Under the pieces are notes generated by a model. The model ran no database searches. It worked only from the letters and a program-made list of their open reading frames with translations, and had not been told where the DNA came from. From assembly GCF_012427845.1 (NCBI RefSeq), contig NZ_CP038498.1, forward strand, positions 1,054,001 through 1,118,000: a stretch of DNA of 64,000 nt, in the 5' to 3' direction. Of this stretch, positions 15,265-50,718 are shown one piece after another; the first letter of the stretch is position 1; the number at the start of each line of letters is the position of its first letter. The translations under genes were made by a program, and so were the position numbers. This DNA comes from Pectobacterium punjabense (GTDB lineage: Bacteria; Pseudomonadota; Gammaproteobacteria; Enterobacterales; Enterobacteriaceae).

Positions 15265-15279
15265 TAGCGCAGGTCATAC

Positions 15280-18615: not shown

Positions 18616-18630
18616 AGGGCTATTTTACCG

Positions 18631-20805: not shown

Positions 20806-20824
20806 GGTTGTCAGGGCTGCAACA

Positions 20825-20845: not shown

Positions 20846-21010
20846 ACTAGCTAACAACCATTTGTGTTGTTCAACGGGGAACGGGCCACTTCATCTTTCT
20901 GCCCTCAGGAAACGAAAAAAGCGCGCCGGATCAAATCTGCTTCACGCGAGTGCGTTAATCCCGTAGCCGAGAAGTTTTAACCCTATTAAGATGACGGATA
21001 CACTTTCTGT

Positions 21011-30125: not shown

Positions 30126-30974
30126 TTAATTACGAATCTTTTCTTTATTATCCGTATTTTTACGATAAATTATCATGTTGATCTTATCGCCGGGAATTAA
30201 ACCTACAATATCACCTTTCCTGAAAAACAGCGTTTTTGGTGTATGAAGTATTATTTTTACATCCTCACCAAATCTTGCTGATTGGTGATATATTGTTGCT
30301 GGAATATTCCCTCCAACTGAAAATTCCTGTAAACCAATAGAAAATATTCGTGAAGCAAAATTATTTGGCATGACACATACACCTGAAACGAAGATGATCA
30401 GCATACCATGCAGAAATATTTTGCTTGAAGTTTTTGCAGTCAGATGAACAATAGCATGAATTACTATATAAAGACTTGTTGCGAATATTAATATGCTGTA
30501 TTCCCAATCCACCTCTTTTCCAGCGATAAAAGATATTGATAATATAGTTATGAAGAATAAATTAAATATAAAGACAGCGATTACATTTGATTTCCCCATG
30601 TTGTATTTTTTTTCTTCCTTTGGTTTTTTTCTCTCTTTGATATAAAGATGTAATGGTATTAAGAATGAGGTGAAAGACATTGAGAATGCCACTAGAAATA
30701 TTATTGATATTAATATAAATAATTTATTTGAAAGATATAATTCGTTTATCAATTCGTAGCTTAATATTTTATTCTCTCTCATGAAATTTATTAGCAATAT
30801 ATAAGATATTATTGGTAGCGTTATTAAGTGTGATGCCAGCATAGCGACTAATGAGCTAATGGCTCTTTTTAGTGTTCCTGTTGATATATTCATTTTTTTA
30901 GCAAAGCGAGCCAGCATTCTTTCATATCTTACTGAGATATATCTACACATATTGGGGGCGACAACGCGGTCCAT
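30126..30974 (-). CDS. Four-helix membrane protein with C-terminal soluble domain
   Basis: The ATG at 30974 is chosen over one at 30998 because CAGGAG lies seven bases before it. The product (282 aa, AT-rich gene) has a basic N-terminus, four or five membrane helices (roughly 40-62, 85-108, 135-157, 160-182, 188-206) and a soluble tail of about 75 residues, of beta type, ending in a basic stretch. No family is recognised. It is a lone cargo gene of low GC between the inverted repeat and the structured non-coding region; channel, exclusion or immunity functions are all possible. Confidence 0.55.
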   Translation of the reverse strand: MDRVVAPNMCRYISVRYERMLARFAKKMNISTGTLKRAISSLVAMLASHLITLPIISYILLINFMRENKILSYELINELYLSNKLFILISIIFLVAFSMSFTSFLIPLHLYIKERKKPKEEKKYNMGKSNVIAVFIFNLFFITILSISFIAGKEVDWEYSILIFATSLYIVIHAIVHLTAKTSSKIFLHGMLIIFVSGVCVMPNNFASRIFSIGLQEFSVGGNIPATIYHQSARFGEDVKIILHTPKTLFFRKGDIVGLIPGDKINMIIYRKNTDNKEKIRN

Positions 30975-31049
30975 CTGAAGATCTCCTGTTGATCTCATTA
31001 ACTAATCGGATCTACTATACACACGTTGTACCGTTGCTCGAATGCAACA

Positions 31050-31192
31050 TGCCAATGTCCTGGTGATCAGAGAGGGACGCCTTCGGGTGATCACATTGCC
31101 AATGTCATCATGACCTGAGAGATGACGCCTTCGGGCGGTAAACCTGTTTAACCTTTGAAAACAGGGGCCGGTAACGGTTAAGGCTCACTTCA
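31050..31192 (+). repeat. Structured element, copy A
   Basis: Contains two units of TGCCAATGTC ... GACGCCTTCGGG with internal pairing (GTGATCA with TGATCAC), then the hairpin CTGTTT-aacctttga-AAACAG, a CCGG hairpin, and GGTTAAGGCTCACTTCA. Copy B at 33110-33261 keeps the order and the pairings but differs in loops. Confidence 0.65.
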
Positions 31193-31829
31193 AACTTTAC
31201 GTCTTGCGATATGCAGGCGCTTCTTTAGCAGACTTCTTGACGTCTGCGTACTAACGTCATTACGCCTTCAAGGCTTATCTTGCTTTGCTTACTAGCTGCG
31301 AACTTTACGGCTCGTGGGTATGCCAATTGGAACATTTGGCATCTTCCACGTCCGGATTGAGAGCAGAAGTATGCGCGCGTCACTTGTGTATGAGCATCGC
31401 GAATACCAAGTGACGCGCGGGCGCGTAATCGGGCAGAGCTTACGCACTGCCCGATAGACGGTTTCTATACCATCTGACCAACACGTGTAACGGTTTTACG
31501 GACGTATAAACGTCGAATAACTGTTCGTGGTCATTCATTCAACAACCAATCCGAGTGTATGAAGGACATCATCATGAGGACATTTCAGTTAGTTAATAGG
31601 AGGTAATCAGCACGACATCGATGGCGACACCAGTAATTCTGGTGTGTGGAGATAGGCTGACGAAAGTCAGGCCAGCATAAGCTGCGAATGGGTAACACCC
31701 ATGGTATCTCGTATGAGTTCAACATTTCGCCCACCCGATGCACAGATGTCTGCTGAGACGCATGAAGCGCAAAACCAAACCGTGCCATCGGGATGAAATG
31801 TTTCAGGGAATTTGTAGTTAGGTGTTCCC
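31193..31829. other. Hairpin-rich non-coding region
   Basis: No convincing gene. Several strong inverted repeats occur: ATGCCAA/TTGGCAT (near 31320), GCGCGTCACTTG/CAAGTGACGCGC (near 31376-31420), CGGGCA/TGCCCG (near 31430-31455), ACCAG/CTGGT (near 31630) and CCCGATG/CATCGGG (near 31734-31794). A 15-codon frame at 31559-31606 ends in AGG AGG TAA. The density of foldbacks suggests a functional single-stranded or RNA element such as a transfer origin region. Confidence 0.45.
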
Positions 31830-31875
31830 GGTGAGTCAGGTATTCCGTTCACACGGACGGAATACCTGACTCACC
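31830..31875 (+). promoter_or_regulatory. Perfect 19-bp hairpin before integrase gene
   Basis: GGTGAGTCAGGTATTCCGT (31830-31848) and its exact complement (31857-31875) are separated by eight bases. The hairpin ends 21 bases before the ATG of the integrase-like gene, with AGGAG following it, so it could control translation or be a protein site. Confidence 0.6.
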
Positions 31876-31896
31876 TCATTAGAATAGGAGTGCTAA

Positions 31897-32784
31897 ATGG
31901 TCAAATTAAATAAAAGCTTGGTAACTCTGGCTCGGCATGGAGGCGGAAGTTTCAAGACCGTTCATGACCGTATGAAAATTGCAGATCGCGTTGCAGATAG
32001 GTTGAGAAGCCTAAATATTCAAATTCGTGATGCTAAAAATATCAAACCAAAACACGTCGAGATGTATATAAAGAGTCGACGTCTTGAAAATATATCCATA
32101 CGGACTCTGCAAAATGAGATGTCTGCGATACGCTGTATCTTACGTGCGTGTGGTAAAACGATTATGGCTAACCCTGAACATGAAACGTTAAATAACCGGT
32201 CGTTAGGTATTTCTGGGGCCAGCAGAGAAGGGACGAAAGTTGCCATTCCTGATAGCGTATACGAATGTGTCTTGGAAAAAGTTAAAATTGTCGATCAAGG
32301 TGCAGCTGCTGCGATGGAACTATCACGACTTCTTGGTTTACGTAATGAAGAGACCATTCAATCTGTTAAATCACTTAAAACATGGCAGAAGGCTTTACAA
32401 AATGGTGATGAAAAAGTGCGTGTGGTTTTTGGAACGAAGGGAGGAAGACCTAGAGATACTACTATTCTCGATAGAGAAAAGTTAATAATTGCAGTAAACA
32501 ACGCAATAAGTATATCTGGTAAGAATAATGATCGCTTGATTGATAGCCCTGCATTGCATTTAGCTATTGAAAAATACCGTAACATTGTAAGGAGCGCCGG
32601 GCTTGTTGGTAAATACGCACCTCATAGTCTTCGATATGCGTATACTACCGATGTTACCAATCTTCATATTAAAAATGGCTTTAGCCAAAAGGAGGCTGAA
32701 GCATTAGCTTCTATGGATCTGGGTCATGGAGATGGTAGGGGGCATTATGTTGCTCGCGTTTATAACAAAGCTGACCAAGAATAA
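31897..32784 (+). CDS. Tyrosine recombinase (Phage_int_SAM_2/Integrase_1 type)
   Basis: 295 aa with ATAGGAG upstream. N-terminal SAM-like core-binding domain (about 10-110) and a catalytic domain with R149 (LGLRNEE), a lysine-containing KGGRPRDT hairpin (about 184-191), HSLR (243-246), GHGDGRGH (about 276-283) and a Tyr shortly after (HYVARVYNK). It belongs to a second integrase type, distinct from the tRNA-linked one at 49435. Its target is unknown; it may resolve dimers or mobilise part of the ICE. The N-terminal domain is shared with the zinc-finger protein at 29257. Confidence 0.8.
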   Translation: MVKLNKSLVTLARHGGGSFKTVHDRMKIADRVADRLRSLNIQIRDAKNIKPKHVEMYIKSRRLENISIRTLQNEMSAIRCILRACGKTIMANPEHETLNNRSLGISGASREGTKVAIPDSVYECVLEKVKIVDQGAAAAMELSRLLGLRNEETIQSVKSLKTWQKALQNGDEKVRVVFGTKGGRPRDTTILDREKLIIAVNNAISISGKNNDRLIDSPALHLAIEKYRNIVRSAGLVGKYAPHSLRYAYTTDVTNLHIKNGFSQKEAEALASMDLGHGDGRGHYVARVYNKADQE

Positions 32785-32817
32785 TTCTAGTCCATATTAA
32801 TTTAGGAAATTAACCTT

Positions 32818-33012
32818 ATGAAAAGTGATGAGAGTAATAATACACATCACCAAGTCATGTCTATGTATGTAATCGATATATATGTTAATTGCCCACGATG
32901 TGGGGAGAGGCAAGACGGATTCGTTGGTAATCCTGCAGGAGCTTCATTTAAGTGTGACGACTGTGGGGAGACTTACTCTATAGATAAAGATGCTAATGTA
33001 AGTTTTCGGTAA
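32818..33012 (+). CDS. Small zinc-ribbon protein, 64 aa
   Basis: Starts 33 bp after the recombinase. CPRCGERQ (about residues 25-32) and CDDCGETY (about 46-53) form two CxxC knuckles 18 residues apart, the layout of a zinc ribbon, and nothing else is present. It may bind nucleic acid or a partner and is probably co-transcribed with the recombinase. No specific family name is claimed. Confidence 0.6.
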   Translation: MKSDESNNTHHQVMSMYVIDIYVNCPRCGERQDGFVGNPAGASFKCDDCGETYSIDKDANVSFR

Positions 33013-33109
33013 TAGCGCTTTGATATTTTACCTGGCTAGAGAGTTGTAGGGCTTGTCGGCGTTGAAGATTTTGTGTACGATTATTTTGCAAACCGTTGTC
33101 TCTGACAAC

Positions 33110-33261
33110 TGCCAATGTTCCAGTGATTTGAGAGGAACGCCTTCGGGTAATCACATGCCAATGCCATCATTAGCCTGGGAGATGGCGCTTTCGAGCGGCA
33201 ACGAAAATCTGTTTAACCTTTGAAAACAGAGACCGAACATTATCGGTTAAGGCTCACTTCA
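33110..33261 (+). repeat. Structured element, copy B
   Basis: Second copy of the element at 31050-31192, directly ahead of the gene block that runs to 41537. Its third hairpin is ACCG-aacattat-CGGT where copy A has a shorter loop, so the stem is kept while the loop changes. The rest of 33013-33271 holds no gene. Confidence 0.65.
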
Positions 33262-33271
33262 CAAAACTGGC

Positions 33272-33347
33272 TTTCTGCCATCCACCCGTGCGGGGAAGAT
33301 TTCTTCCCGCGTGGGCAGAAATGTTCTCCGTTTTTCATTTGGAGAAC
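33272..33347 (+). promoter_or_regulatory. Two-stem leader L1
   Basis: Upstream stem TTTCTGCC (33272) to GGCAGAAA (33321) encloses GCGGGGAA/TTCCCGC. Then GTTCTCC (33323-33329) pairs perfectly with GGAGAAC (33341-33347), which is the ribosome binding site and touches the ATG. Confidence 0.65.
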
Positions 33348-33698
33348 ATGATGCAAACTTTAGCTACCCAACGTTTAGTTGTTTTTGGTAAAGCAGCATC
33401 TGCTTTACTGAAGCGACACTTTCTTAAACGCTCTTCGGCATCCGCTGAATCCAATTGGATTAAGGGGCAGGCGTTTATCAATCGATCTCGAAACATGAGT
33501 TTTCTGGCTCAGGCTGAACGGGATACTGACGGTTTTTGGTATTATCGCATTTGTGCGCGTACTGGAACTGGCTCAGGTAACTATCGATTTGAACATTTAA
33601 ATACACCACGGGAAGCTTTTATTAACTGGCGGCAGGCTTTAAAAGCTGGTGAATATCTTGCTCAGCAGCTCGCAACGCTGCGTTACCGCTTCCAGTGA
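33348..33698 (+). CDS. Hypothetical basic protein, 116 aa
   Basis: The start is the ATG at 33348, directly after GGAGAAC; an in-frame ATG at 33288 lies inside the leader hairpin and is rejected. The product is basic, beginning MMQTLATQRLVVFGKAASAL and containing FLAQAERDTDGFWYYRICAR. No known domain is visible. It opens a block of genes that are each preceded by the same kind of leader. A nucleic-acid-binding role would suit the charge but is unproven. Confidence 0.6.
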   Translation: MMQTLATQRLVVFGKAASALLKRHFLKRSSASAESNWIKGQAFINRSRNMSFLAQAERDTDGFWYYRICARTGTGSGNYRFEHLNTPREAFINWRQALKAGEYLAQQLATLRYRFQ

Positions 33699-33710
33699 CT
33701 TAGAGCGTAC

Positions 33711-33779
33711 CCACACGGGGATTTATCCCCACGTGGAGATAAATCCCTTTTCGTTTTGAACCGAAAAAAGGATTTATCG
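33711..33779 (+). promoter_or_regulatory. Two-stem leader L2
   Basis: Stem 1 is CCAC-ac-GGGGAT/ATCCCC-ac-GTGG (33711-33736). ATAAATCC (33739-33746) can pair with GGATTTAT at the Shine-Dalgarno (33770-33777) or with the identical GGATTTAT inside stem 1 (33719-33726), giving a two-state arrangement. Confidence 0.65.
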
Positions 33780-34295
33780 ATGCACGATTTCAACACGAAA
33801 CCTTTTGTCTCGCGCTTGGCGATCCTGCGGCGTGATGATGAATTTTTACAACGCTCTACAACAGACCTCATTAGGATTGTCTCTGATATTGAGTCTGTAT
33901 TGATGGAAGCGACTGCGCTGATACGTCTTGAGTCTGAACTGATGACAGCTGCTTCGTTCATGCGTATCAGAATTGATGACATGATCGAGTGGGACGATTT
34001 AGCGTGTATGACTCCTTACGAAAAAAGCATAGCGTGGGTTGCACGGCAGGCCGGTGAAATTATCAACCTGGAACTGCTACCGCGTACTTTTTTTGACAAA
34101 TACTTCGCAGATATTCTTGAGCTCGGCCTTTCTGTTAATGCTGCCATGTGGCAGCACTATTTTAATAAAGGCCTGAAGGATGCTGCCCGTGTTCATGAGA
34201 GCCCTAATGCGAGCATTTGGCTCATTGATTACTACCTTTACGCGCTCAGTGTAGATGTCGAACGCAACTGGTATGAAGGCCGGACGTTCTACTGA
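33780..34295 (+). CDS. Tandem paralogue 1, unknown, 171 aa
   Basis: Start at 33780 after AAAAAAGGA; an in-frame ATG at 33756 is within the leader. The product is acidic and helical. It shares with the next two genes the pattern DLIRIVSDIESVLMEA near the start, then GE-x-I-x-LELLPRTFFDKYFADILELG and a WQHYFNKGLKDAARV segment. This is a divergent member of a three-gene tandem family of unknown function. It is longer by a mid-protein insertion. Confidence 0.6.
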   Translation: MHDFNTKPFVSRLAILRRDDEFLQRSTTDLIRIVSDIESVLMEATALIRLESELMTAASFMRIRIDDMIEWDDLACMTPYEKSIAWVARQAGEIINLELLPRTFFDKYFADILELGLSVNAAMWQHYFNKGLKDAARVHESPNASIWLIDYYLYALSVDVERNWYEGRTFY

Positions 34296-34318
34296 CCGAC
34301 AGCCATATCGTGACTTAA

Positions 34319-34380
34319 CCCATGCGGGATTTATCTCCTGCGGGGGATAAATCTCTTTTGAATTGAAAAGGAATTTATCC
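34319..34380 (+). promoter_or_regulatory. Two-stem leader L3
   Basis: Stem 1 runs CCC (34319) to GGG (34346) with GC-GGA/TCC-GC inside. GGATAAATCTC... (34345) pairs with AAAAGGAATTTATCC ending at 34380, covering the AAAAGGA ribosome binding site of the ATG at 34384. Confidence 0.6.
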
Positions 34381-34383
34381 ATT

Positions 34384-34788
34384 ATGAACACTTTACTTAA
34401 TCGTCTTGCTCGTAATCGTCATTCTGTCGTTGACCTGCTGTGTGTGATTTCTGACATAGAAGGAAAATTGATGGAGATTGGTGCATTCGAGGCACTTCGG
34501 ATCAACTGTTCTCCTGACGAGGATGGTTTTACAGACAATGACCATCAGATTTTCGGAATCGCAGAATGCCTTGGCGAAACCGTTGGGCTGAATTTTATCC
34601 CTGATAATTACAGTCATTATTTGAATGATGTGATTTCACTGGGAAACAAAGTCGGCCAGGGGTTTTGGGACAAAGCCTTTCAGAATGGCGTCCAGGAGGG
34701 TAAGCATACTTGCTGGGAATTCTCTTCTTGCTTGGATGGCGACGGTGATTTCGATGGCTACATTAAGTGGCTTGGTCGGATCCATTGA
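34384..34788 (+). CDS. Tandem paralogue 2, unknown, 134 aa
   Basis: Begins MNTLLNRLARNRHSVVDLLC, nearly identical to the following gene for its first 30 residues, including VIS-x-IEGKLMEMG. Shared positions continue with FGIAECLGE, LNFIPDNYSHYLNDVI and GFWDKAFQNGV. The start ATG follows AAAAGGA in leader L3. No domain is recognised. High similarity to paralogue 3, at both gene and leader level, points to a recent duplication that included the control region. Confidence 0.65.
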   Translation: MNTLLNRLARNRHSVVDLLCVISDIEGKLMEIGAFEALRINCSPDEDGFTDNDHQIFGIAECLGETVGLNFIPDNYSHYLNDVISLGNKVGQGFWDKAFQNGVQEGKHTCWEFSSCLDGDGDFDGYIKWLGRIH

Positions 34789-34821
34789 ATACGGAGTTTG
34801 ATGCATTTTTTTGTTACTTAA

Positions 34822-34885
34822 CCCATACGGGGATTTTTCCCCTATGGGGGATAAATCCCTTTTCAAATTGAAGAGAGGATTTATC
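34822..34885 (+). promoter_or_regulatory. Two-stem leader L4
   Basis: Stem 1 CCCATA-c-GGGGA/TCCCC-TATGGG spans 34822-34848. Stem 2 pairs GATAAATCC (34850-34858) with GGATTTATC (34877-34885), which contains the AGAGGA ribosome binding site of the ATG at 34887. Confidence 0.65.
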
Positions 34886-34886
34886 T

Positions 34887-35357
34887 ATGAATACTTTACT
34901 TAATCATCTTTATCGTAATCGTCATTCTGTCGTTGATCTGCTTTGTGTGATTTCAGCAATAGAAGGCAAATTGATGGAGATGGGTACATTCAAGCAGTCT
35001 GATATCAACTGTGTTCCTGATCATAGTGGCACTATAGGCCATGATTATCTGATTTTCGAAATCGCAGAGTGTCTGGGCCAGGCCTTTGAGTTGGGCTTTA
35101 TTCCCGAAAATTACAGACATTATTTTGATGATGTGATTTTGCAGGGAAAGAAAGCTGGTTGGGGATTCTGGGACACCTATTTTCAATTTGGTGTCACCGA
35201 CGTTAAGCATGCTCGTTCGGCTTTTTCCGATGAGGTTGCGCGCATTAAGTGGCTTAGTGAGTCAAAAGTTATAAGACTCATTTTGAGTGACCAGTGTGTA
35301 CGGATCGTTCCCAATGCTGCATGTGAGCCTTCACTTGAAGGTTGTTTGATGCACTGA
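34887..35357 (+). CDS. Tandem paralogue 3, unknown, 156 aa
   Basis: Starts MNTLLNHLYRNRHSVVDLLC and follows paralogue 2 closely through FEIAECLGQAFELGFIPENY, HYFDDVILQGKKAG and GFWDTYFQFGV. It has about 25 additional C-terminal residues after the shared WL motif, ending in a cysteine-containing tail. Function unknown. The amplification of three such genes in conjugation-linked DNA suggests a family that targets varied host or phage factors (inference). Confidence 0.65.
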   Translation: MNTLLNHLYRNRHSVVDLLCVISAIEGKLMEMGTFKQSDINCVPDHSGTIGHDYLIFEIAECLGQAFELGFIPENYRHYFDDVILQGKKAGWGFWDTYFQFGVTDVKHARSAFSDEVARIKWLSESKVIRLILSDQCVRIVPNAACEPSLEGCLMH

Positions 35358-35397
35358 CAGCCTGTTTTACATCAATTATCGACCCTCGATAATTTTA

Positions 35398-35442
35398 CCT
35401 TTCCCCCAGTGGCAATGCTTTCCGCCACCAGGGGGAAAGCAT
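35398..35442 (+). promoter_or_regulatory. Leader L5 with two exclusive hairpins
   Basis: CTTTCCCCC-AGTGGC (from 35399) pairs with GCCAC-CAGGGGGAAAG (35424-35439). Alternatively AATGCTTTCC (35414-35423) pairs perfectly with GGAAAGCATT (35433-35442). A short AAAAG/CTTTT repeat covers the ribosome binding site at 35451-35462. Confidence 0.55.
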
Positions 35443-35462
35443 TCGCCCGTAAAAGGTCTTTT

Positions 35463-35939
35463 ATGCGCGAATTAACATCCCCCAACACCACTCTTTATAC
35501 CGGTCGTGAATCACGTGTCATCAATATGGCATTAGCACTGCTTGAGCGACGAGTTAGAAAACTGGAAGCCATGACGTCTCCTGAAGTCGTTAAAGCGTAC
35601 TTGCGTCTCAAACTGGAGCATATTGAACGAGAGGTCTTTGTCGCTCTGTTCCTGAATAACCAAAATCGATTAATTTCCTGTGAATTCCTTTTCGCCGGAA
35701 CTATTAACAGTGTGGAGGTTCATCCAGGTGAGGTTGCCCGGCAAGCGATTCGATTGAATGCGGCTGCGGTCATCTTTGCCCATAACCACCCGTCGGGGAA
35801 TGCTGAACCCAGCAATGCCGATCGGAAAATCACTGAAAAACTGGTTAATGCACTGTCTCTGATTGAAATTCGTGTACTGGATCATGTCGTAGTTGGCCAC
35901 GGCGAAATAGTGTCGTTTGCCGAACGCGGCTGGTTATAA
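35463..35939 (+). CDS. radC: RadC-like JAB-domain protein
   Basis: 158 aa from the ATG at 35463 with AAAAGG upstream. The JAB/MPN-type metal site is complete: E (in LEHIERE/VFVALF context), H107-N-H109-PSG and a downstream D near residue 120 in PSNADRKITEKL. Proteins of this family (DUF2466, formerly called RadC) are frequent in ICEs, plasmids and prophages. The short form lacks the N-terminal helix-hairpin-helix domain of chromosomal RadC. Its role is unsettled; the old link with recombination repair has been withdrawn. It may process DNA or proteins on entry into a recipient. Confidence 0.85.
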   Translation: MRELTSPNTTLYTGRESRVINMALALLERRVRKLEAMTSPEVVKAYLRLKLEHIEREVFVALFLNNQNRLISCEFLFAGTINSVEVHPGEVARQAIRLNAAAVIFAHNHPSGNAEPSNADRKITEKLVNALSLIEIRVLDHVVVGHGEIVSFAERGWL

Positions 35940-35962
35940 ATACTTTCGTCTAATCAGACGTT

Positions 35963-36026
35963 ACCCCACGGGGAGAGCCTTCTCCCGCACGGGATGGTTC
36001 TCCCTTTTTTATCACCAAAAAGGAGA
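35963..36026 (+). promoter_or_regulatory. Two-stem leader L6
   Basis: GGGAGA (35971-35976) pairs with TCTCCC (35981-35986). TTCTCCCTTTTT (from 35998) pairs with AAAAAGGAGA ending at 36026, hiding the Shine-Dalgarno, or with the upstream GGGGAGAGCC. Confidence 0.6.
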
Positions 36027-36030
36027 GTTC

Positions 36031-36246
36031 ATGTCTCACATTGATATCACTCAAGAAGCTCCCGCTCAGGGTACTTCGTTTACACCAGAGCAGGAAGACG
36101 CATTGTGTCAGCTCATACGTCGGGAATGTTTTCGGCGAGACAGAAATGCACTACTGAAACTGCTCGGTTATCTCACGTTGCTAAAAGTCGCCGGTTCTCT
36201 GGTTCTTTTGGCTTTCGTCCTGGTACTTCGCGGGTTAACTCATTGA
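36031..36246 (+). CDS. Small membrane-anchored protein, 71 aa
   Basis: Start ATG at 36031 with AAGGAGAG; the frame is open further upstream but only through the leader. The protein has a charged N-terminal half, containing FTPEQEDALCQLIRRECF, and one membrane helix near the C-terminus (about residues 49-67). Orientation by charge puts the N-terminal part in the cytoplasm. No family recognised. It is followed after 11 bp by the next gene. Confidence 0.6.
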   Translation: MSHIDITQEAPAQGTSFTPEQEDALCQLIRRECFRRDRNALLKLLGYLTLLKVAGSLVLLAFVLVLRGLTH

Positions 36247-36257
36247 AAGGAGGGATT

Positions 36258-36713
36258 ATGCCAATGCCTTTACACATACTGATTGTTCTGTTTACAGGGC
36301 TGTGGTTCATCGTACGCTGGACGAGCATATTGTCTGCACGTGCTCTTGTCTGGCTTTATCAGACCTGGCGTCAGCGTTCTGAGCCCATGGAATCGTCAAC
36401 TCATCGAACTGATCATCGAATAATTTATACCGGAAAATGGTTGCTCGCCGATGACCATCAATGTAGTGGGCGTGCAGTCGTACTGAAGCTCCGCCACAAT
36501 TATAAACCTGGTGTGGAGTTGCAATATTTCGGTGAAGAGACTCCGCAGGCGTTTTATGGCGAACGTTATATGGATAGTGAGGACGAGGCGGTTGATACCG
36601 CCTTGGCAATGCACCAGAAGTTATTACGTAATGTGCGTCAACGACCTAAACCTGAAAGGATGCCCGCTGTCGTGACGATTTCGTCAGCTGCTCAGAATGA
36701 TGAAGCAGCATGA
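36258..36713 (+). CDS. Hypothetical protein with N-terminal membrane helix, 151 aa
   Basis: Start ATG at 36258, six bases after AAAGGAGGG, and not preceded by a leader hairpin: it is translated with the gene before it. One or two hydrophobic segments (about residues 4-37) precede a soluble domain with HRIIYTGKWLLADDHQ and LQYFGEETPQAFYGERYM. No known domain. The stop overlaps the next start by 4 bp. Confidence 0.6.
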   Translation: MPMPLHILIVLFTGLWFIVRWTSILSARALVWLYQTWRQRSEPMESSTHRTDHRIIYTGKWLLADDHQCSGRAVVLKLRHNYKPGVELQYFGEETPQAFYGERYMDSEDEAVDTALAMHQKLLRNVRQRPKPERMPAVVTISSAAQNDEAA

Positions 36714-36982
36714 TTGGGCGGCCGCAATCATCTCCGGCCGTTGCCATTGATGACAGCGCGTGGGAAAGACTCGTTGCGTTTGCGCCCGAGCCGGCGTGCG
36801 AGACTGAACGGCTATATCGTCTGATTCGTCATGCATTAAAAGCACTGGCTGCGAGCACTCGCTCAGAAATAACAACCGGCTACTTTTGTTTATCCGGTGA
36901 AGGCAATGAATCGACATCGCTGTGGCAGCAGTTTTATCTGCGTTATGAGAATGATGTTATTCATATCAGCCTGACCGACTAA
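36710..36982 (+). CDS. Hypothetical protein, 90 aa
   Basis: Coupled by an ATGA overlap to the gene before. Soluble protein with a central helix (RLYRLIRHALKALAAS) and a beta-rich end (FYLRYENDVIHISLTD). No leader hairpin of its own, in keeping with its position inside a transcription unit. Function unknown. Confidence 0.55.
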   Translation: MIGRPQSSPAVAIDDSAWERLVAFAPEPACETERLYRLIRHALKALAASTRSEITTGYFCLSGEGNESTSLWQQFYLRYENDVIHISLTD

Positions 36983-37003
36983 CACAGCATCTTACTAACC
37001 CTG

Positions 37004-37048
37004 ACGGGGACACCCGCAGGGGTGGACCCGTCTTTTTTTTCGGAGTCC
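37004..37048 (+). promoter_or_regulatory. Two-stem leader L7
   Basis: Stem 1 pairs ACGGG (37004-37008) with CCCGT (37027-37031), with ACCC/GGGT inside. Stem 2 pairs GGACCCG (37024-37030) with CGGAGTCC (37041-37048), the ribosome binding site of the ATG at 37054. The stems share 37027-37030 and so exclude each other. Confidence 0.7.
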
Positions 37049-37053
37049 ATACC

Positions 37054-37539
37054 ATGAGTTTACTGACCACTAATGAACACCAGGAATCGGCCCTGGCCAC
37101 GCAAGGCGCAATGAAGTCGCTGACTCGCGAGCCTGGCACCATCGAACGTACCCGTAACCGTTTCTATGACTGGTTACAGGCTGAGTTCGATCGGCACTAT
37201 CACACGTTGAGAGACGGCGGTTACCGGCGTTTTCTTGAGCAGCGCCACCCTGAAGAACTGGAGCGTTATGACGCGGCCTGTGATGCGTTAAGGCGCGAAG
37301 AGTTCAGCCGTTTTGCCGAGCTTCAGACGCTGGGGCTGTTTTTACATACGCAGGTCGCTGAGAAAGAAGCCCAGTTCCGCCGGCGGCGTAACCAGTTTCT
37401 GATGGCCATGTCGGCGACAGGGATAATCACATCTGCTGTTGTCTGGGCCTATCTGCATCATGAGCAGTTTGTGCAGTTGTGCCAGCAAACCGTTATTGCG
37501 GGTCATGCGATTCTACAACTGTTCACCACTGTACTCTGA
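37054..37539 (+). CDS. Tail-anchored hypothetical protein, 161 aa
   Basis: The first 110 residues are soluble, helical and very charged (FYDWLQAEFDRHYHTLRDGG, then AEKEAQFRRRRNQ), followed by a membrane helix (about 115-133) and a second hydrophobic stretch at the C-terminus. This suggests a cytoplasmic domain held at the inner membrane. No family recognised. Preceded by leader L7 and followed by leader L8. Confidence 0.6.
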   Translation: MSLLTTNEHQESALATQGAMKSLTREPGTIERTRNRFYDWLQAEFDRHYHTLRDGGYRRFLEQRHPEELERYDAACDALRREEFSRFAELQTLGLFLHTQVAEKEAQFRRRRNQFLMAMSATGIITSAVVWAYLHHEQFVQLCQQTVIAGHAILQLFTTVL

Positions 37540-37556
37540 TTTTTGATTTTTCCTGA

Positions 37557-37600
37557 GGGAACCATCCCTCAGGGGATGGTCCCGATTTTTGATGGAGACC
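37557..37600 (+). promoter_or_regulatory. Two-stem leader L8
   Basis: Stem 1: GGGAACCATCCC (37557-37568) with GGGATGGTCCC (37573-37583), one bulged A. Stem 2: GGTCCC (37578-37583) with GGAGACC (37594-37600) at the Shine-Dalgarno. The 3' arm of stem 1 is the 5' arm of stem 2. Confidence 0.72.
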
Positions 37601-37603
37601 AGA

Positions 37604-39565
37604 ATGAAAACTTTCACATTACAGGATGCCGGTGATATTTGCCGGCTGTTAACAGAACGTCTGATGCAGAGTGTCAACTCGGGTAAAACGCCGTGGAGAC
37701 AGAGTGTTATTCGCCAGGGGATACCGGAACACGCATTAAGCGGACAACGGTTCACCGGCATTAACGCTTTGTTGCTCTGGCAATCGGCGTTGCAAAACGG
37801 CCTGGTATCAAATCGTTGGCTGACGGGTGATGATTTACGCTCTCTGGGCGGAAGAATCACTCCGGGGCAGCGACCGACCACCGTTGTCCGCTACAAACCG
37901 TCACTTTCACTGTTTCGGGTTATCAACGTTGAACAGTGCGAGGGATTATCCGACATGCTGCAACCCGGCTGGCCGTGGCCACCGTCTCCCGTACCTGGAA
38001 TGGAGCGGGTAGGGCAGTGGCAGTTTGCGTCTGGGGTTCCTGTTCTGTTCAATGCACAACGTCCGGCGGTTTACCTGCCCGAAAGTGATCGCATTGAATT
38101 ACCTGATAGTGAGCAGGGTAATCTAGATAGTCTTATAGCGTTGCTCGTCAGTGCTACTGGACATCCCACTCGACTGGGGCGCCGTTGTTTCACGGGGAGT
38201 GATGTTCCGGAACTGGATGAATACCTGCAAGAGAGTCTTGTTGCTGATGTGGGACGTGCATTTCTTGCCGCACTGGCAGGGATACATCTTGCTGGTCCGT
38301 CGATGTGGAATGGTGAGTTGGGTTCAGACCCGTGGATACTGTTTAAATCTGCTTCTGAAGCAGGCAAGGCGGTTGATTGGCTGGAAAAACAGCGGTTGGC
38401 CACATTGCCGTTCGATGATGTTCAGCATTGGCAGAGACAGGCAGAACATCTGTTAACTACTCACTATGGCCAGCAGTTGGATGATACGACGTTAGTGTGT
38501 GACAGCGTGGTGCATCAGCACTTGCGTTACAACATTTCACCGGGTAATGCGGTAAATGCGCTGGCCCGAATCTACGACTGGCCGCGGTGTGATATGCCGA
38601 CGGCATTGTTCACACCAGAGTTGAATAGCGTTGCTGATGCATTGGCGCGTTTCTCACTGAATCCAGGAAGTCTGGCTGTTCATCGTGTCGCCAGCGACAT
38701 CGATGATAGCGACGTCGCCCTGGAGGCGCCGGAGCTTGGCACTTTGTTGCTACCGCCACCGTCTGCCGAATCGGTCGATGAGATTGCAGCTAACGATGAG
38801 GAAGAAGGGGATGACCCGGATGATCCGGGAAATCTCGCCGCGCTCCCTTGGGTAAGAAACCAGGGACGTTCCAATCCACATCGAGCAACGTTTATTCGGC
38901 AGTTTCAGGAAATTGCACCGTATGAGAACCGTTGGACAGTATTCAGCGATTTTATTCACATGTCGGCAGCGGCGTTACATAACCGGTGCCATTTTGTGCA
39001 GGAAATCGAAGATGACTACATGCGGCGAATAAAACGTTACAAGACAGCTGATCAGCGTCGTTTTCCTGTGCTTTTCAACACACTGGTCGACGGTATGGAA
39101 TTCAGCGCTGCGGATTTTCTTGGTTCTGTATTCATGGAGCTCGAGCTTGGCGATCAGCGCCGGGGACAGTATTTCACGCCGTATTCCATCGCTTACATGA
39201 TGGCGAAAATGCAGTTGTCTGACGGTCTACCTGCGCTGACAAGTGGGGAAAGGGATTTCATTACTATCTCAGATCCCGCATGCGGTGCCGGTGGTCTGGT
39301 TGTCGCGATGGCACAAGCCATGCTTGAAGCGGGTTTCAATCCACAGAAACAGATGGTTGCTGTCTGCGTCGATATCGATCCTGTCGCGGCGATGATGGCG
39401 TATGTGCAACTGGCTTTATGTGGCATACCTGCGATGGTGATTGTCGGGAACAGCTTAAGCATGGAGTTCCGTCAAACCTGGCGTACACCTTTCTGGATGA
39501 TGTTCGGCTGGGAACGTAAGTGGACTCGTGAACAAGAGCGAAAAGCTCAACAGAAAGTCGCCTGA
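37604..39565 (+). CDS. ArdC-domain/N6-adenine methylase-like fusion protein
   Basis: 653 aa. The first 110 residues match the ArdC N-terminal single-strand-DNA-binding domain (PF08401), with GKTPWRQSVI, HALSGQRFTGINALLLW and GRITPGQRPTTVVRY. A middle part of unknown type (110-430) includes a D/E-rich stretch near 400. The C-terminal part is of type I N6-adenine methylase fold: RRGQYFTPYSIAYMM and motif I DPACGAGGL (557-565), then a VCVDIDPVA motif. No NPPY/NPPF catalytic motif follows. The protein may shield incoming DNA against restriction by binding rather than methylating; this is inference. Confidence 0.75.
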   Translation: MKTFTLQDAGDICRLLTERLMQSVNSGKTPWRQSVIRQGIPEHALSGQRFTGINALLLWQSALQNGLVSNRWLTGDDLRSLGGRITPGQRPTTVVRYKPSLSLFRVINVEQCEGLSDMLQPGWPWPPSPVPGMERVGQWQFASGVPVLFNAQRPAVYLPESDRIELPDSEQGNLDSLIALLVSATGHPTRLGRRCFTGSDVPELDEYLQESLVADVGRAFLAALAGIHLAGPSMWNGELGSDPWILFKSASEAGKAVDWLEKQRLATLPFDDVQHWQRQAEHLLTTHYGQQLDDTTLVCDSVVHQHLRYNISPGNAVNALARIYDWPRCDMPTALFTPELNSVADALARFSLNPGSLAVHRVASDIDDSDVALEAPELGTLLLPPPSAESVDEIAANDEEEGDDPDDPGNLAALPWVRNQGRSNPHRATFIRQFQEIAPYENRWTVFSDFIHMSAAALHNRCHFVQEIEDDYMRRIKRYKTADQRRFPVLFNTLVDGMEFSAADFLGSVFMELELGDQRRGQYFTPYSIAYMMAKMQLSDGLPALTSGERDFITISDPACGAGGLVVAMAQAMLEAGFNPQKQMVAVCVDIDPVAAMMAYVQLALCGIPAMVIVGNSLSMEFRQTWRTPFWMMFGWERKWTREQERKAQQKVA

Positions 39566-39586
39566 CATAACAATTTAACCCTAACC

Positions 39587-39632
39587 GGGCGTTTCTCCCG
39601 GAAGGGGAGGCGCCCTTACTTTATTTGTAAGG
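39587..39632 (+). promoter_or_regulatory. Two-stem leader L9
   Basis: Stem 1: GGGCG (39587) with CGCCC (39611-39615), enclosing CTCCC/GGGAG. Stem 2: CCTTAC (39614-39619) with GTAAGG (39627-39632), the Shine-Dalgarno of the ATG at 39639. They overlap at 39614-39615. Confidence 0.65.
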
Positions 39633-39638
39633 AGCAGC

Positions 39639-40532
39639 ATGCTAACAGAGCAGTTTATTCAACAGGTATACCTGAAGGAGATGAACCTCTTTCTCCATCC
39701 GGATGAGTGGCAGACTGATATCAGTAACGATCTGCAAGACTACATGAATACGGATATCGTGTTTCGTAGCCAGCGATTGTTACCCGTTATGCAGTTTATG
39801 CTCGATCAGATCCCCGGTAATCGTCAACTGCGGGCTCGTTGTCAACTGAGTGAGCGCATTCTGACCCTATGGATTTTGGGGCTGGATGCGCTGGCCACAG
39901 CCAGTGGTAATACACGGCTATTACCGAGGACGTCTCCGGAGAGCAGTGGTCGGGTTGATTGCCTGTTACCTGGCGAGCCGTCTGCCTTGCTGGATTTGTC
40001 TGACGACGATTTTATCCGACTGACGGCTCAAGGCGATCGACATACTGATGATGTCATCCTCCGTTCGCAGCTGGCGCAAACGATGCAGCACTGGTCTCGG
40101 TTTGAGTCTTGGTTAAGTCGTGCGTTAGCGCAGACGGGAGAACATTGTGTGGCACAGTTGGCGACATTGAAGCGACGTTGTGACGTTGATGAACGTGTTG
40201 TTCGACGGTTTGATACGGATTTCGGGTTTATTACGGTGAACCTGAGGGCGATAGACCCTGAGTGCATGAGCACGACAGACCCCGTTGAGTATGTTAAACG
40301 GGTTTGCCGCTGTGAGATACACCCTGTTGCGCTGGAGAGCCGGATTCATTATCACAATGGTGCCATCATCGGTCGTTTTTCCGTTCAGAAAGAGGTCGGG
40401 AATGTGGGCCGGCTGACCGCAGCAGACTACGGTGACGTTGTGCAGCAGGCGATAGCCTGGCTGCGCGACGAACGTCGACGTCTGCAACGTGATGACCACT
40501 CATCGGCGCCAGCATTACGTCTGGTTGCCTGA
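39639..40532 (+). CDS. Paralogue pair member A, unknown, 297 aa
   Basis: Helical, acidic protein without membrane segments. It aligns along its length with the next gene: FIQQ-x-Y near the start, LTLWI near residue 72, SGR-x-D (about 105), WSRFESWLSRAL (about 147), IHYHNGAIIGRF (about 251) and AIAWLRDERRRL near the end. No domain is recognised. Uncharacterised genes of this size are regular members of SPI-7-like ICEs. Confidence 0.65.
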   Translation: MLTEQFIQQVYLKEMNLFLHPDEWQTDISNDLQDYMNTDIVFRSQRLLPVMQFMLDQIPGNRQLRARCQLSERILTLWILGLDALATASGNTRLLPRTSPESSGRVDCLLPGEPSALLDLSDDDFIRLTAQGDRHTDDVILRSQLAQTMQHWSRFESWLSRALAQTGEHCVAQLATLKRRCDVDERVVRRFDTDFGFITVNLRAIDPECMSTTDPVEYVKRVCRCEIHPVALESRIHYHNGAIIGRFSVQKEVGNVGRLTAADYGDVVQQAIAWLRDERRRLQRDDHSSAPALRLVA

Positions 40533-40554
40533 CTGATTACTTAAACTTTACCCA

Positions 40555-40604
40555 GCAGGGGGAACGCCCTGTCGGGCCTCCTGCCATCACTACTTTGACA
40601 GGAG
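40555..40604 (+). promoter_or_regulatory. Two-stem leader L10
   Basis: Stem 1: GCAGG (40555-40559) with CCTGC (40580-40584), with GCCC/GGGC inside. Stem 2: CTCCTGCCA (40578-40586) with TGACAGGAG (40596-40604), one mismatch, covering the Shine-Dalgarno of the ATG at 40611. The stems share 40580-40584. Confidence 0.72.
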
Positions 40605-40610
40605 TACACG

Positions 40611-41537
40611 ATGTGCATTATTCATGAATATATTCAACAGGCATATCAGCGGACATTAGGCTATGCGCCGGATTATGACGAAATATGCTGGCAGTTGGAT
40701 GAGAACGCTGGCCATACTTACGTTAATACGCAAACGTTGTTTGAAAACGAGCAACTGACGGCCGTGATGGAAACCATGCTGGAACGCCTTGATACAGACG
40801 ATGCTAAGCGTGAGCGCAGCAGGAAAGTTCTGACGTTGTGGATAAACGCTACGAACTGGCAGGCTAATGGTAACGGGGTAGATCATGGATATTTGTATCT
40901 TCCCCGGGTTCACCCGCAAATCAGTGGTCGAACCGACCAGTTGCTGCGCGCTGACATCATGCCTCTCTACGAACTGGATGAAGCGACGTTTCGTGAAGCC
41001 TCTGGACAAAGCGACAGTTTGCCGGATGAGTACGTGACTCTGGCGCAATTTCGGCAGAGTGAACGCTATTGGTTCCGCTTCATGGATCACCTGGAGCGAT
41101 CGTTGCGTGATGTTTCTCATCAGTGTGCAGAAACGCTGACGCAGTTTGTCAGCAACTGTAATTTCGAGGAAAAACAGATACGGCGTTGGCGTGGCAGCGC
41201 TGGTGAAATACGTTTGTACATGTCTCAGCAGTCTATTGATGACATCGATATCATGGAGTTTGAGGATGATTTTCTGACCCAGCATGTCGATGCTATAGCC
41301 GCGGGAATTTATGTACCAGTGACTTTCCGCGCAGATGTTCATTATCGCAATGGTGCTGTAATGAAGAGTTTTACGGGGGATACGGAGGTCAATGATCCTA
41401 CACGCCCGAATGCATCGGATTATTATGATGTTATGGTCGATGCAATTGAGTGGATTAGGGAAGAGTCAGAACATGTGGTATCGCGGTTAAATACCTCCAG
41501 TCAACCAGTGGCTGTGGTTCACCCGTTGGCGGCTTAA
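40611..41537 (+). CDS. Paralogue pair member B, unknown, 308 aa
   Basis: Homologous to the preceding gene (YIQQAYQRTLGY, LTLWI, ISGRTDQLL, YWFRFMDHLERSL, VHYRNGAVMKSF, AIEWIREESEHV at matching positions). Overall identity looks low, so the duplication is old, yet the leaders keep the same two-stem form with unrelated sequence. Acidic and cytoplasmic. Last gene before a strong terminator. Function unknown. Confidence 0.65.
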   Translation: MCIIHEYIQQAYQRTLGYAPDYDEICWQLDENAGHTYVNTQTLFENEQLTAVMETMLERLDTDDAKRERSRKVLTLWINATNWQANGNGVDHGYLYLPRVHPQISGRTDQLLRADIMPLYELDEATFREASGQSDSLPDEYVTLAQFRQSERYWFRFMDHLERSLRDVSHQCAETLTQFVSNCNFEEKQIRRWRGSAGEIRLYMSQQSIDDIDIMEFEDDFLTQHVDAIAAGIYVPVTFRADVHYRNGAVMKSFTGDTEVNDPTRPNASDYYDVMVDAIEWIREESEHVVSRLNTSSQPVAVVHPLAA

Positions 41538-41546
41538 AAACTTGGA

Positions 41547-41572
41547 AAGGGCACTTCGGTGCCCTTAATTTA
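41547..41572 (+). terminator. Rho-independent terminator of the leader-hairpin gene block
   Basis: AAGGGCAC-TTCG-GTGCCCTT (41547-41566), a stable UUCG-loop hairpin followed by TAATTTAT. It separates the plus-strand block from the minus-strand genes. Confidence 0.8.
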
Positions 41573-41621
41573 TGGCATTTCAACACGCAATATGCGAGCA
41601 CCTGCTCTGGAAACGTTGGGC

Positions 41622-41915
41622 TTATTCATCGTGCTGCCTCCAGAGGTTTGACCCGACGCGATACGTCGTAGTCGGAAAACGGTTTTCGCCATTAAGTTGA
41701 AGACCGCTCGCTTTAAGATTTAAAAGCTCAAGACGCAGTTCATCGAGCTCAAGTTTAAGATATGCGTTCTCCATCCCATATTGAGCGTCACATTTAACTT
41801 TGTCGTCAGTCTTCTGTTGATTTATTAAACCAACGCCAATGACGAGAATAAAAATAAGAAAACATAGAACTGAAGCCGAAATAATTTTTTCTCGATATGA
41901 CATTTGTACTTTCAT
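41622..41915 (-). CDS. Small membrane-anchored coiled-coil protein, 97 aa
   Basis: A membrane helix (about residues 13-31) is followed by a coiled coil rich in L and E (ENAYLKLELDELRLELLNLK) and a short tail. The layout recalls Rz-like or spacer proteins, but there are no lysis genes nearby, so I do not assign that. A second ATG at 41903 is an alternative start. It lies 20 bp after the DUF2786 gene and probably ends that operon. Confidence 0.5.
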   Translation of the reverse strand: MKVQMSYREKIISASVLCFLIFILVIGVGLINQQKTDDKVKCDAQYGMENAYLKLELDELRLELLNLKASGLQLNGENRFPTTTYRVGSNLWRQHDE

Positions 41916-47744: not shown

Positions 47745-47936
47745 GAGCCCCCCTTATGAAAGTCCCGTATTCAGACATGCCTCGTGTACGGTTGCATTAC
47801 GAAATTCTTCACGAGAAGGAAAAAGAAAACTTCAAGGCCTTAATGGATGTGGCTCGCTATACACTTTTCGCTTGTGTAGTGGGGGATAAAACATAGCGTA
47901 ATGCCCCTTTCCCCCCGATTAAACACAAGGACCTGC

Positions 47937-49394
47937 ATGTTAAAGTGGCTCAGAAATAAAGCGGGTGCTACTACGGAGACCAGGCCGATACCCCTTCAAC
48001 AGGTAGACGGATGGTTTACTCCACAAAATGCGGATACGCTGCTGTCTACGAAGAAAAGAAAGCGCGCGCTCCAGCAATTGTGGGATAACAGCCCGTTCTC
48101 TCAGGACGTGTGGGATATTTACTGGCTGCAAACAGTGAGAGCTCTGGCCGTTACTGTTCAGCAACTCCCCCTCGATAATGAAGACGAATACTGTCGTCCA
48201 GGTGGTTTCCTGGATATGGCTCTGGATGTGGCTGTATGCGCTGTCAGGCTTTCCAGAGGATATATGCTGCCTCCAGGCGCACAGCCAGAAGAGCAGGCCG
48301 CTCAGAGCTCTGCTTGGACATCAGCGATTTTTTGGGCTGCATTGTTACACAACATAGAACGTTTATCAGGGTTGAAGGTTGTTGTGCAAAACGGTGTGTG
48401 GATCCCCGGTTTGTCTGTTCCTGATGCGCCATGGCGTGTCAGATTTGAAGTGAGCTCTGGTGATGTTCATGCCAGAACTGCGGCAGTGGCGTTACGGCTG
48501 ATACCCTCTCCAGGCATCACATGGATCGCTCGCTGGCCTCATATTCTGGATTTACTGCTTGTTTATCTTTCCGGTAAAAAATCTGAAGCTGGCATACTGA
48601 ATGCGATTGTACTTAACGCCAGAGAAAAGTGCGGTATCAAAACGAATGATATTGCGCTCCCTGCACCGGTCGAGCTGGCGATTCCTGCTGCCACTATAGA
48701 ACAGGATCCTCCTGTAGTATCCGTTGAGCAAGGGACAGCCACGGCAATCTCACCACTCATTGATTCCGGTGATAATAATTACAATGATAATCAATTAAAG
48801 GAAGCGCAGCCTGTTGTCTCTGCGTTGGTATCTGCAATTGATCAGGATGATTTATCCGACAGCTCATCAGGGATTGATGAATCACAAACTCATCTCCCTG
48901 TTACTGCTGATTTACTGAATGTTCTTGACCAGCAATTAACTGCAACGGTACCGGTTACTCCGGCTCCCGGGGTCAGTAGCACTTCATCGAATGAAATGAA
49001 TGAAGTAGAAAAAAAACCAGTCCCTCAGGAGGAACTATTTTGGGCGTGGTTGATTAATGCTGTCAGGGATGGTTCGTTGACGATAAATAATTCGGATAGC
49101 TTGGTTCATATTATGAGCCAGTATGTTTTCCTGCAAACGCCAGACTGTTTTTATCGTTTTTTTTCTATCTGTAATGATTCTTCTATTGATAAGGATACGC
49201 TTCAAAAGAATTTTGAAAATCTTAATCGACACTATTCACGGAGCGGAAAGGGAATTTATATTTATCGAAAATATGAAAATGAAAATAAAGAGGGGCGTTA
49301 TACAAAAATGTCGGGGTATATGATTGCATCTGAATTGATATTTGATAAGGGGGCATGTCCGCCAGATAGTGGCTGGTTATCGCCTAATAAGTGA
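47937..49394 (+). CDS. TraI_2-like (MobH-type) protein with degenerate HD site
   Basis: ATG at 47937 after AAGGA; an in-frame ATG at 47901 has no such site. The product (485 aa) has the TraI_2 domain of MobH relaxases: VDGWFTPQNADTLL, FSQDVWDIYWLQTVRALAVT, GYMLPPGAQPEEQAAQSSAW and AIFWAALLHNIERLSGLKV. Relaxases have GGLLDH and LLHDIGK here; this protein has GGFLDM and LLHNIE, so two metal-binding positions are lost. A low-complexity middle (about 240-370) leads to a TraI_2_C winged-helix region (EELFWAWLINAVRDGSLTIN). Probably a regulatory or structural paralogue, not the nicking enzyme. Confidence 0.72.
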   Translation: MLKWLRNKAGATTETRPIPLQQVDGWFTPQNADTLLSTKKRKRALQQLWDNSPFSQDVWDIYWLQTVRALAVTVQQLPLDNEDEYCRPGGFLDMALDVAVCAVRLSRGYMLPPGAQPEEQAAQSSAWTSAIFWAALLHNIERLSGLKVVVQNGVWIPGLSVPDAPWRVRFEVSSGDVHARTAAVALRLIPSPGITWIARWPHILDLLLVYLSGKKSEAGILNAIVLNAREKCGIKTNDIALPAPVELAIPAATIEQDPPVVSVEQGTATAISPLIDSGDNNYNDNQLKEAQPVVSALVSAIDQDDLSDSSSGIDESQTHLPVTADLLNVLDQQLTATVPVTPAPGVSSTSSNEMNEVEKKPVPQEELFWAWLINAVRDGSLTINNSDSLVHIMSQYVFLQTPDCFYRFFSICNDSSIDKDTLQKNFENLNRHYSRSGKGIYIYRKYENENKEGRYTKMSGYMIASELIFDKGACPPDSGWLSPNK

Positions 49395-50642: not shown

Positions 50643-50718
50643 TGGTGCCCGGACTCGGAATCGAACCAAGGACACGAGGATTTTCAATCCTCTGCTCTAC
50701 CGACTGAGCTATCCGGGC
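50643..50718 (-). tRNA. tRNA-Phe(GAA), ICE attachment site
   Basis: Read on the minus strand, GCCCGGATAGCTCAGTCGGT begins the acceptor and D arms, the anticodon loop has GAA in TTGAAAATC, the T arm is GGTTCGATTCC, and the acceptor closes with CCGGGCACCA including an encoded CCA. Its 3' end faces the ICE at 50643, so the attachment core must lie in the 3' part of this gene. The intact tRNA remains on the chromosome side. In enterics this tRNA (pheV) neighbours speC, as here. Confidence 0.95.

Follow-up and report, generated by a model that had tools for sequence, protein, structure and literature searches.

Tandem leaders with competing hairpins that can mask the Shine–Dalgarno sequence in a gene block of a Pectobacterium integrative and conjugative element

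Leader switches that mask the Shine–Dalgarno (SD) sequence are known as translational riboswitches and protein-controlled leaders, in which alternative hairpins expose or hide the SD. We know of no leader family that recurs at successive genes with arms that are mostly private. Here we describe leaders of this kind in Pectobacterium punjabense, in a 64,000-nucleotide stretch of contig NZ_CP038498.1 (positions 1,054,001 to 1,118,000; hereafter the window) that holds part of an integrative and conjugative element (ICE) of the SPI-7/PFGI type, with TIGR03744, TIGR03752 and TIGR03755 genes present. Ten genes of one block (L1–L10; Table 1) are each preceded by a leader of competing helices. Unlike the two known classes, these leaders have no conserved aptamer-like core, carry mostly private arms and lie in tandem before unrelated genes.

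Three further systems of mobile DNA invite comparison. In the repZ-type pseudoknot control of IncI/IncB plasmids (PK-repZ, named in the accessible text of PMC12370729), an upstream element competes with the SD region for pairing, as it does here; unlike PK-repZ, two helices of our leader (P1 and P2, below) should exclude one another, and the leader is not confined to a replication gene. Fold-back inhibition in IS10/Tn10 likewise lets a mobile element hide an SD on transcripts begun upstream, whereas the present leader stands before many genes of one run and shows no promoter sign inside each copy. The Frpo/ssi single-strand promoters of leading regions (excerpts of PMC9849209 and PMC11541004) share with our leaders an association with establishment-type genes of conjugative elements; as those excerpts have it they act on transcription, whereas our leader is anchored at the SD and start codon. 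Rfam 15 yields no family match at gathering score over the leaders across the whole window, and in 12 related loci only neighbouring motifs; the sole match at E ≤ 1 in 33260–40620 is a sub-threshold Flavo-1 (0.98). Literature searches, limited by licence, found no description of such leaders, and absence from print is thus not established.

In the leader, the inner part of the 5′ arm of an upstream hairpin (P1), together with its loop, contains a sequence nearly identical to the SD, which we term X. An anti-SD arm, X′, follows almost directly 3′ of P1, succeeded by a U-rich loop and then the SD. Two partners are available to X′, namely X (giving P2) and the SD (giving P3), one at a time; because X′ follows P1 with hardly any spacer, P1 and P2 should be mutually exclusive. 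Eight of the ten window leaders fit this scheme fully, that of gene 37604 (L8) is weaker and that of gene 35463 (L5) is atypical; in L9 the two uses of X′ overlap only briefly. An earlier note on this DNA had placed an SD-absorbing hairpin and a second, upstream hairpin at nine or ten starts, of which it named ten, and folding finds both at all ten; the two genes it held to lack a leader (36258 and 36710) indeed have none. The anti-SD arm overlaps the upstream stem not just in L2, L5 and L7–L10, as it listed, but in L1, L3, L4 and L6 as well. Its statement that the arms differ while pairing is kept holds across the leaders, save that L2, L3 and L4 have almost identical arms, so that the ten amount to about eight independent cases.

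Folding of −50 to +6 gives z values of −1.4 to −6.0 for the ten leaders, against +1.9 to −2.9 for 28 control starts of the window; three of the 28 controls fall below −1.5, and the weakest leader, L10 (−1.36), lies within the control range by folding z alone. The minimum-energy fold is P1+P3 in most leaders, and the window fold with the SD open is P2 in L1–L4, L6, L7, L9 and L10. For L6 the SD-open fold lies just 1.1 kcal/mol above the best fold, and in a second folding the best fold contains P2. Opening the SD costs a median of 7.3 kcal/mol (range 1.1 to 17.7; 40 leaders, 37 °C energies only). Duplexes of X with its own X′ average −15.2 kcal/mol, against −10.1 (standard deviation (s.d.) 0.98) with X′ arms swapped among the ten leaders (0/20000 permutations; the automatic arm choice includes P1 3′-arm bases in L5, L7 and L10). 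Single-leader shuffles return p of 0.061 for L1, 0.026 for L8, 0.019 for L9 and ≤0.004 for the other seven. A second swap procedure, in which X′ may also include P1 bases, gave −13.92 against −10.93 (2/20000) for 20 leaders, ten from the window and ten from pKLC102, and −9.72 against −9.12 (818/20000) for 58 non-leader starts. Comparing orthologous loci of Pectobacterium and Brenneria, letters have changed and pairing is kept: in two Brenneria loci the X, X′ and SD arms of the 37604-gene leader all differ jointly from Pectobacterium, and a leader of Brenneria alni (locus L006, 6450–6509) combines an unrelated arm set with the same architecture.

Regions 3′ of the STAXI RNA motif in other genomes show the same architecture with other arms, and one such leader precedes a STY4534/DUF3577 gene. 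A leader stands 5′ of this gene in many Gammaproteobacteria (GTDB sense); the gene itself is found in 18 of 369 genomes of the class (own included) and in 57 plasmid records, and similar DNA occurs in 132 of 5426 Escherichia coli genomes. We extracted 37 STY4534 leaders and aligned 30, leaving out copies or near-copies (loci L096, L098, L099 and L108), two with an extra hairpin (L097 and L106) and one with an irregular fold (L113). The extra hairpin, small and set between P1 and X′ (L097 1422–1503; L131 566–662), leaves X:X′ complementarity intact. At L102 (1504–1509) a STY4534-like gene has a stop codon directly after the leader-indicated ATG. Columns of the alignment that are invariant or nearly so lie in the SD, in the ATG and in the blocks of C and G.

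RNAalifold detected P1 alone in this alignment, which we think reflects P3 arms shifted by bulges, and we therefore counted named pairs and used swap tests. Both uses of X′ coevolve with their partners: X:X′ duplexes average −14.84 in their own combination against −10.46 when swapped (s.d. 0.45), and X′:SD −15.51 against −11.58 (s.d. 0.49), each 0/20000. The covariation score exceeds that of shuffles in P1 (0.188 against 0.125), P2 (0.215 against 0.168) and P3 (0.330 against 0.202), with 0/500 in every case, bearing in mind that related sequences can beat such shuffles without structure; both-side-changed pairs and pair types are clearly above shuffles in P3 only. Columns that are unpaired in the P1+P3 fold and pair with the P1 5′ arm in P2 (P2-only columns) are 66.7% paired against 55.7% (2/500), with a score at 21/500. 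Swapping among 32 dissimilar leaders, mostly from tandem arrays, again favours own partners (X:X′ −18.12 against −12.29, s.d. 0.54; X′:SD −15.7 against −10.11, s.d. 0.53; both 0/20000), as does the full second set of 73 leaders from which they come (X:X′ −19.23 against −13.62, 0/20000), from which three of 76 rows were dropped and in which two kept minus-strand rows (L158 6156–6239 and L164 1349–1411) are antisense over other matches. With reservations on P2, the leaders fall into the broad class of alternative-hairpin leaders that sequester the SD, with two conserved, mutually exclusive folds, one of which masks the SD. Covariation across related elements, whose absence the earlier note had named as a refutation, supports its proposal of a common control mechanism for a conjugation-linked gene block.

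The 30 aligned leaders, none of which is in the window and one of which (L081) is from the same genome as the window, served to build a covariance model (R1); its E values are rough (short calibration). On the window at E < 1, eight of nine plus-strand matches are leaders, and all eight stop precisely at the start codon; the ninth, at 18504–18576 (E 0.16), is not a leader; of four minus-strand matches, three are antisense over leaders and one is elsewhere. L5 is kept in eight orthologous loci though missed by R1. The model also recovers the left-out leaders of L113, L097 and L106 (the last as L131 566–662). In a scan of the window's own genome that scored 150 of the 809 first-look candidates, three matches reach E < 0.001, two window leaders and a STY4534 leader 23 kb to the left of the window. 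Across 49 loci, matches at E ≤ 0.1 occupy 126 distinct places (13 of 139 overlapped better ones), and 121 of these end exactly at the start codon of an open reading frame (ORF) of at least 40 codons or running off the locus, the latter being counted as long enough. As R1 includes the ATG, only the ORF part of this placement is independent. The ORFs at the 121 places fall into 28 protein clusters by BLAST linkage.

Tandem use extends well beyond Pectobacterium. Matches at E ≤ 0.01 occur in 44 of the 369 class genomes, often as tight arrays (nine in 8 kb of genome G546), and same-strand matches at E ≤ 1 number 15 in 14 kb of locus L162, 11 in L160, 11 in L158 and eight in L161. All ten plus-strand matches to pKLC102 at E ≤ 0.03 end at annotated starts, and a leader precedes 10 of the 12 annotated plus-strand genes in 12909–22996; another plus-strand match (E 0.057) is not at an annotated start, and the ten plus-strand pilus-module genes (1345–11987) have no R1 match. 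In SPI-7-type islands of E. coli the STY4534 leader is present in all five loci viewed (L110, L111, L112, L120 and L121), and the small downstream gene has one in the four loci that carry it (by eye, from folds); where viewed, the ssb, DUF4160, Rpn and topoisomerase genes of those islands have none. Megablast of the whole block found no match in E. coli genomes and, among plasmids, a single Serratia record matching the STAXI stretch, and the distant matches L046–L048 hold nothing recognizable as a leader. For a 58-codon ORF behind a leader in L166 (8360–8536), PLSDB carries the automatic resistance prediction OXA-573; the size and context of the ORF make that label look doubtful.

We consider it probable (about 60%) that each leader is a cis-acting translational switch, OFF by default as P1+P3 and ON when P2 forms. 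The design may be read as six alternating blocks: CCC (1), GGG (2, the start of X), CCC (3), GGG (4), CUCC (5, X′) and GGAG (6, the SD). By default, blocks 1:4 and 2:3 are predicted to form P1 and 5:6 to form P3, which would hide the SD. In the other fold, 2:5 and 3:4 would form P2, leaving blocks 1 and 6 free for a ribosome to bind. Block 1 would thus be the handle, such that engaging it or destabilizing P1 would free the SD. SD exposure would be the output of this switch, with one trigger serving all leaders of an element. The likeliest candidates for that shared trigger are a protein and the processing, at P1, of the polycistronic mRNA; a cut in P1 or a structure-reading protein would act on all leaders alike.

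The triggers offered by the earlier note fare less well. One shared antisense RNA is disfavoured, because arms differ within one element while pairing is kept and a single RNA cannot match many private arms. A global RNA-binding protein is disfavoured in its CsrA/Rsm form only, with unpaired GGA in the 5′ part of just 2 of 112 leaders; folding of the transferred single strand is weakly disfavoured on grounds given below. Nor do the 30 aligned leaders show the conserved ligand-binding core of a riboswitch.

In favour of a translational switch, 88 of 113 leaders (9/10, 25/30 and 54/73 by set) exchange partners by a simple criterion: at least four bases paired with the SD region in the default fold move to upstream partners when the SD is opened. 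Several points weigh on the other side. The alternative pairing is absent from simple folds in the remaining 25 of 113. L5 and L8 fit poorly, the best SD-open fold of L8 keeping P1 and the favoured fold of L5 varying with the stretch folded. In P1, P2 and the P2-only columns, both-side-changed pairs and further pair types are not clearly above shuffles. The slide control for P2 is unclean, a −1 slide scoring 0.239 against 0.215 in the true register, with fewer paired cells (62.2% against 73.3%); we attribute this one-column ambiguity to bulges. Finally, in 55 of 113 leaders the 3′-most stem of the fold with the SD open is followed by a T-rich stretch, with T at five or more of eight positions.

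Since about half of the leaders have that T-rich stretch, P2 could be a terminator in many, and transcription attenuation is a live rival, if in our estimate an unlikely one: P2 and the T-rich stretch would form an intrinsic terminator for each gene, P1 the antiterminator, and a STAXI or radC RNA at the operon start would give read-through. T content after the stem is 4.2 against 2.9 elsewhere before the SD in the window (4.25 against 3.45 in the array set), a simple scan finds 17 terminator-like sites in 30900–41700 against 9.7 (s.d. 3.9) in shuffles, with L3, L8 and L9 among them, and one of the two RNAs lies just 5′ of the first leader in several arrays. The 30 STY4534 leaders, however, show no T enrichment after the stem (3.7 against 4.07; 11 of 30 have five T), and attenuation leaves the kept X′:SD pairing unexplained. 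A double lock, in which X′ inhibits in both folds (as a terminator with X, as a mask with the SD) and only a factor holding X′ turns the gene ON, would account for conservation of both X′ pairings and for the terminator-like half of the leaders; we regard it as quite improbable, since P1, which would weaken the X:X′ lock, is itself conserved and covarying.

As a special case of the translational switch, an endonuclease cut between blocks 1 and 2 would remove block 1, let P2 form and open the SD. The symmetry of block 1 and the SD predicts such processing, and the available portion of PMC2892462 describes the long core transcript of ICEclc as larger but rapidly cleaved, with rapid amplification of cDNA 5′ ends upstream of several ORFs giving no specific products. 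ICEclc is a possible parallel, such cleavage of the leaders is putative, and this version strikes us as rather improbable.

Alternatively, the hairpins might form in the single-stranded DNA that is transferred and serve there as promoters or as sites for proteins. STAXI has been proposed as possibly single-stranded DNA, with RNA favoured by its authors in the portion of PMC2864571 available. Against this, the region has fewer promoter-like sites than expected by chance (6 against 13.9), and the elements end at the start codon, locked to the SD. Mismatch counts can also be set against it, as G–U exceeds A–C in the STY4534 set (P1 27/8, P2 70/22, P3 51/19), A–C being depleted relative to column shuffles in P1 (14.0 expected) and P3 (31.5) and hardly in P2 (25.2). 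The array set gives 72/27 for P1, as in the STY4534 set, and 112/94, little difference, for P3. Taken together these counts mildly favour sense RNA as the folding strand, and action as single-stranded DNA seems to us very improbable. An own promoter in each leader likewise finds no support, sigma-70-like sites not being in excess in a scan that did not model hairpin-borne promoters.

Attenuation coupled to the ribosome, whether by a leader peptide or by the stop codon of the upstream gene, draws some encouragement from position: block 1 starts 11 to 23 nt after the upstream stop in seven of nine gene-following window leaders (the block-1 coordinates behind these figures are wrong by several bases in L1 and L5 and by a single base in L6 and L10). 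The full distances nevertheless range over 11 to 51 nt within the window and 13 to 384 nt in eight pKLC102 leaders, and at the E. coli locus L110 the nearest upstream gene ends 556 nt before the STY4534 leader, with STAXI between. A short ORF with its own SD ends in the region in one of ten window leaders, the sole candidate for a leader-peptide attenuator, and we give ribosome coupling very little credence.

The STAXI and radC RNAs belong to the same kind of mobile element and, where they adjoin a leader, end 8 to 67 nt before it, but they differ from it in sequence and structure, do not overlap it and occur at most a few times per element rather than per gene. STAXI in enteric elements, and radC RNA (RF01754) in Pseudomonas, Stutzerimonas and one Enterobacter plasmid, stand directly 5′ of a leader that frequently opens a run; most other genes in a run have the leader alone, and L158, L160 and L162 have neither motif. 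Sharing this place, the two RNAs may be equivalents. STAXI is present in all six orthologous loci scanned (L002–L007) and in six of 295 genomes from the order, that of the window among them. Copies of radC RNA lie 8 to 33 nt before a leader in L118 (2733–2882), L119 (1398–1541 and 2772–2917) and L165 (12678–12825, 13755–13905 and 16283–16420).

Two STAXI RNAs and one EFASI RNA lie 5′ of the window block on its strand (Table 1). Family matches within the block are confined to RadC at 35463 and to ArdC-N with an N6 methylase at 37604, the other ten genes having none. The 37604–39565 product resembles a fusion, joining ArdC-N and N6-methylase domains to a CbtA-toxin-like stretch barely above cut-off; in loci L082–L085 a shorter protein of the same cluster is likewise under a leader. 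Two pairs of neighbouring paralogues of unknown function each have their own leaders: 39639–40532 and 40611–41537 (32% identity), and 34384–34788 and 34887–35357 (about 60% identity, from cross-matches in locus L003). Among the transfer genes, a TrlF-family ATPase is carried as cargo (21011–23704; NF045780, above its cut-off).

Table 1. Leaders and other features of the window. Helices are given as 5′ arm/3′ arm.
Feature	Position	Strand	Gene start	P1	P2	P3	R1 E value	Remark
L1	33283..33350	+	33348	33290-33298/33303-33310, outer part 33283-33285/33311-33313	33290-33308/33313-33331	33321-33330/33340-33349	6.5e-6	SD in 3′ arm of P3
L2	33707..33782	+	33780	33711-33721/33726-33736	33717-33730/33735-33748	33738-33753/33762-33778	0.035	
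L3	34316..34386	+	34384	34319-34329/34336-34344	34326-34338/34343-34355	34345-34359/34366-34380	0.17	
L4	34819..34889	+	34887	34822-34833/34838-34848	34829-34842/34847-34860	34849-34865/34869-34886	0.016	
L5	35397..35468	+	35463				missed	atypical; competing hairpins 35399-35413/35424-35439 and 35409-35426/35431-35448; SD arm 35452-35457 can pair with 35397-35402
L6	35962..36033	+	36031		35970-35979/35996-36005, inner 35983-35986/35991-35994		3.2e-6	
L7	36997..37056	+	37054	36999-37008/37013-37021	37003-37015/37020-37032	37022-37030/37041-37050	0.025	
L8	37549..37606	+	37604	37549-37560/37565-37576		37577-37584/37593-37601	0.83	X:X′ weaker
L9	39577..39641	+	39639	39579-39591/39595-39607	39587-39599/39604-39615	39610-39619/39627-39638	6.9e-4	
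L10	40551..40613	+	40611	40551-40560/40567-40576	40555-40566/40573-40584	40578-40586/40596-40604	missed	
12-gene block	33348..41537	+						leader at ten genes, none at 36258 and 36710
STAXI RNA (RF01728)	33094..33257	+						directly 5′ of L1
STAXI RNA, further copy	31032-31188	same as block						
EFASI RNA (RF02957)	31607..31755	+						5′ of integrase-like gene (31897)
TraI_2 relaxase	47901-49394							window ICE
Integrase	49435-50409							window ICE
tRNA-Phe	50643-50718							

More tentatively, the leaders may represent a large unrecognized RNA switch family of SPI-7/pKLC102-type ICEs and related plasmids, which would hold a set of accessory and establishment genes translationally silent (anti-restriction, methylase, RadC, DUF3577, DUF932 and others), the private switches being opened together by one sequence-independent trigger tied to the transfer cycle. 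The covariance model provides a sequence signature that marks such gene blocks in uncharacterized genomes, where most of the genes are without a family, and two orphan Rfam motifs, STAXI and radC RNA, are linked to the architecture downstream of them. The leaders also offer SD switches with natural compensatory variants. If the proposal is true, it explains how conjugative elements silence many potentially costly genes in closely spaced runs, and how they might open them together.

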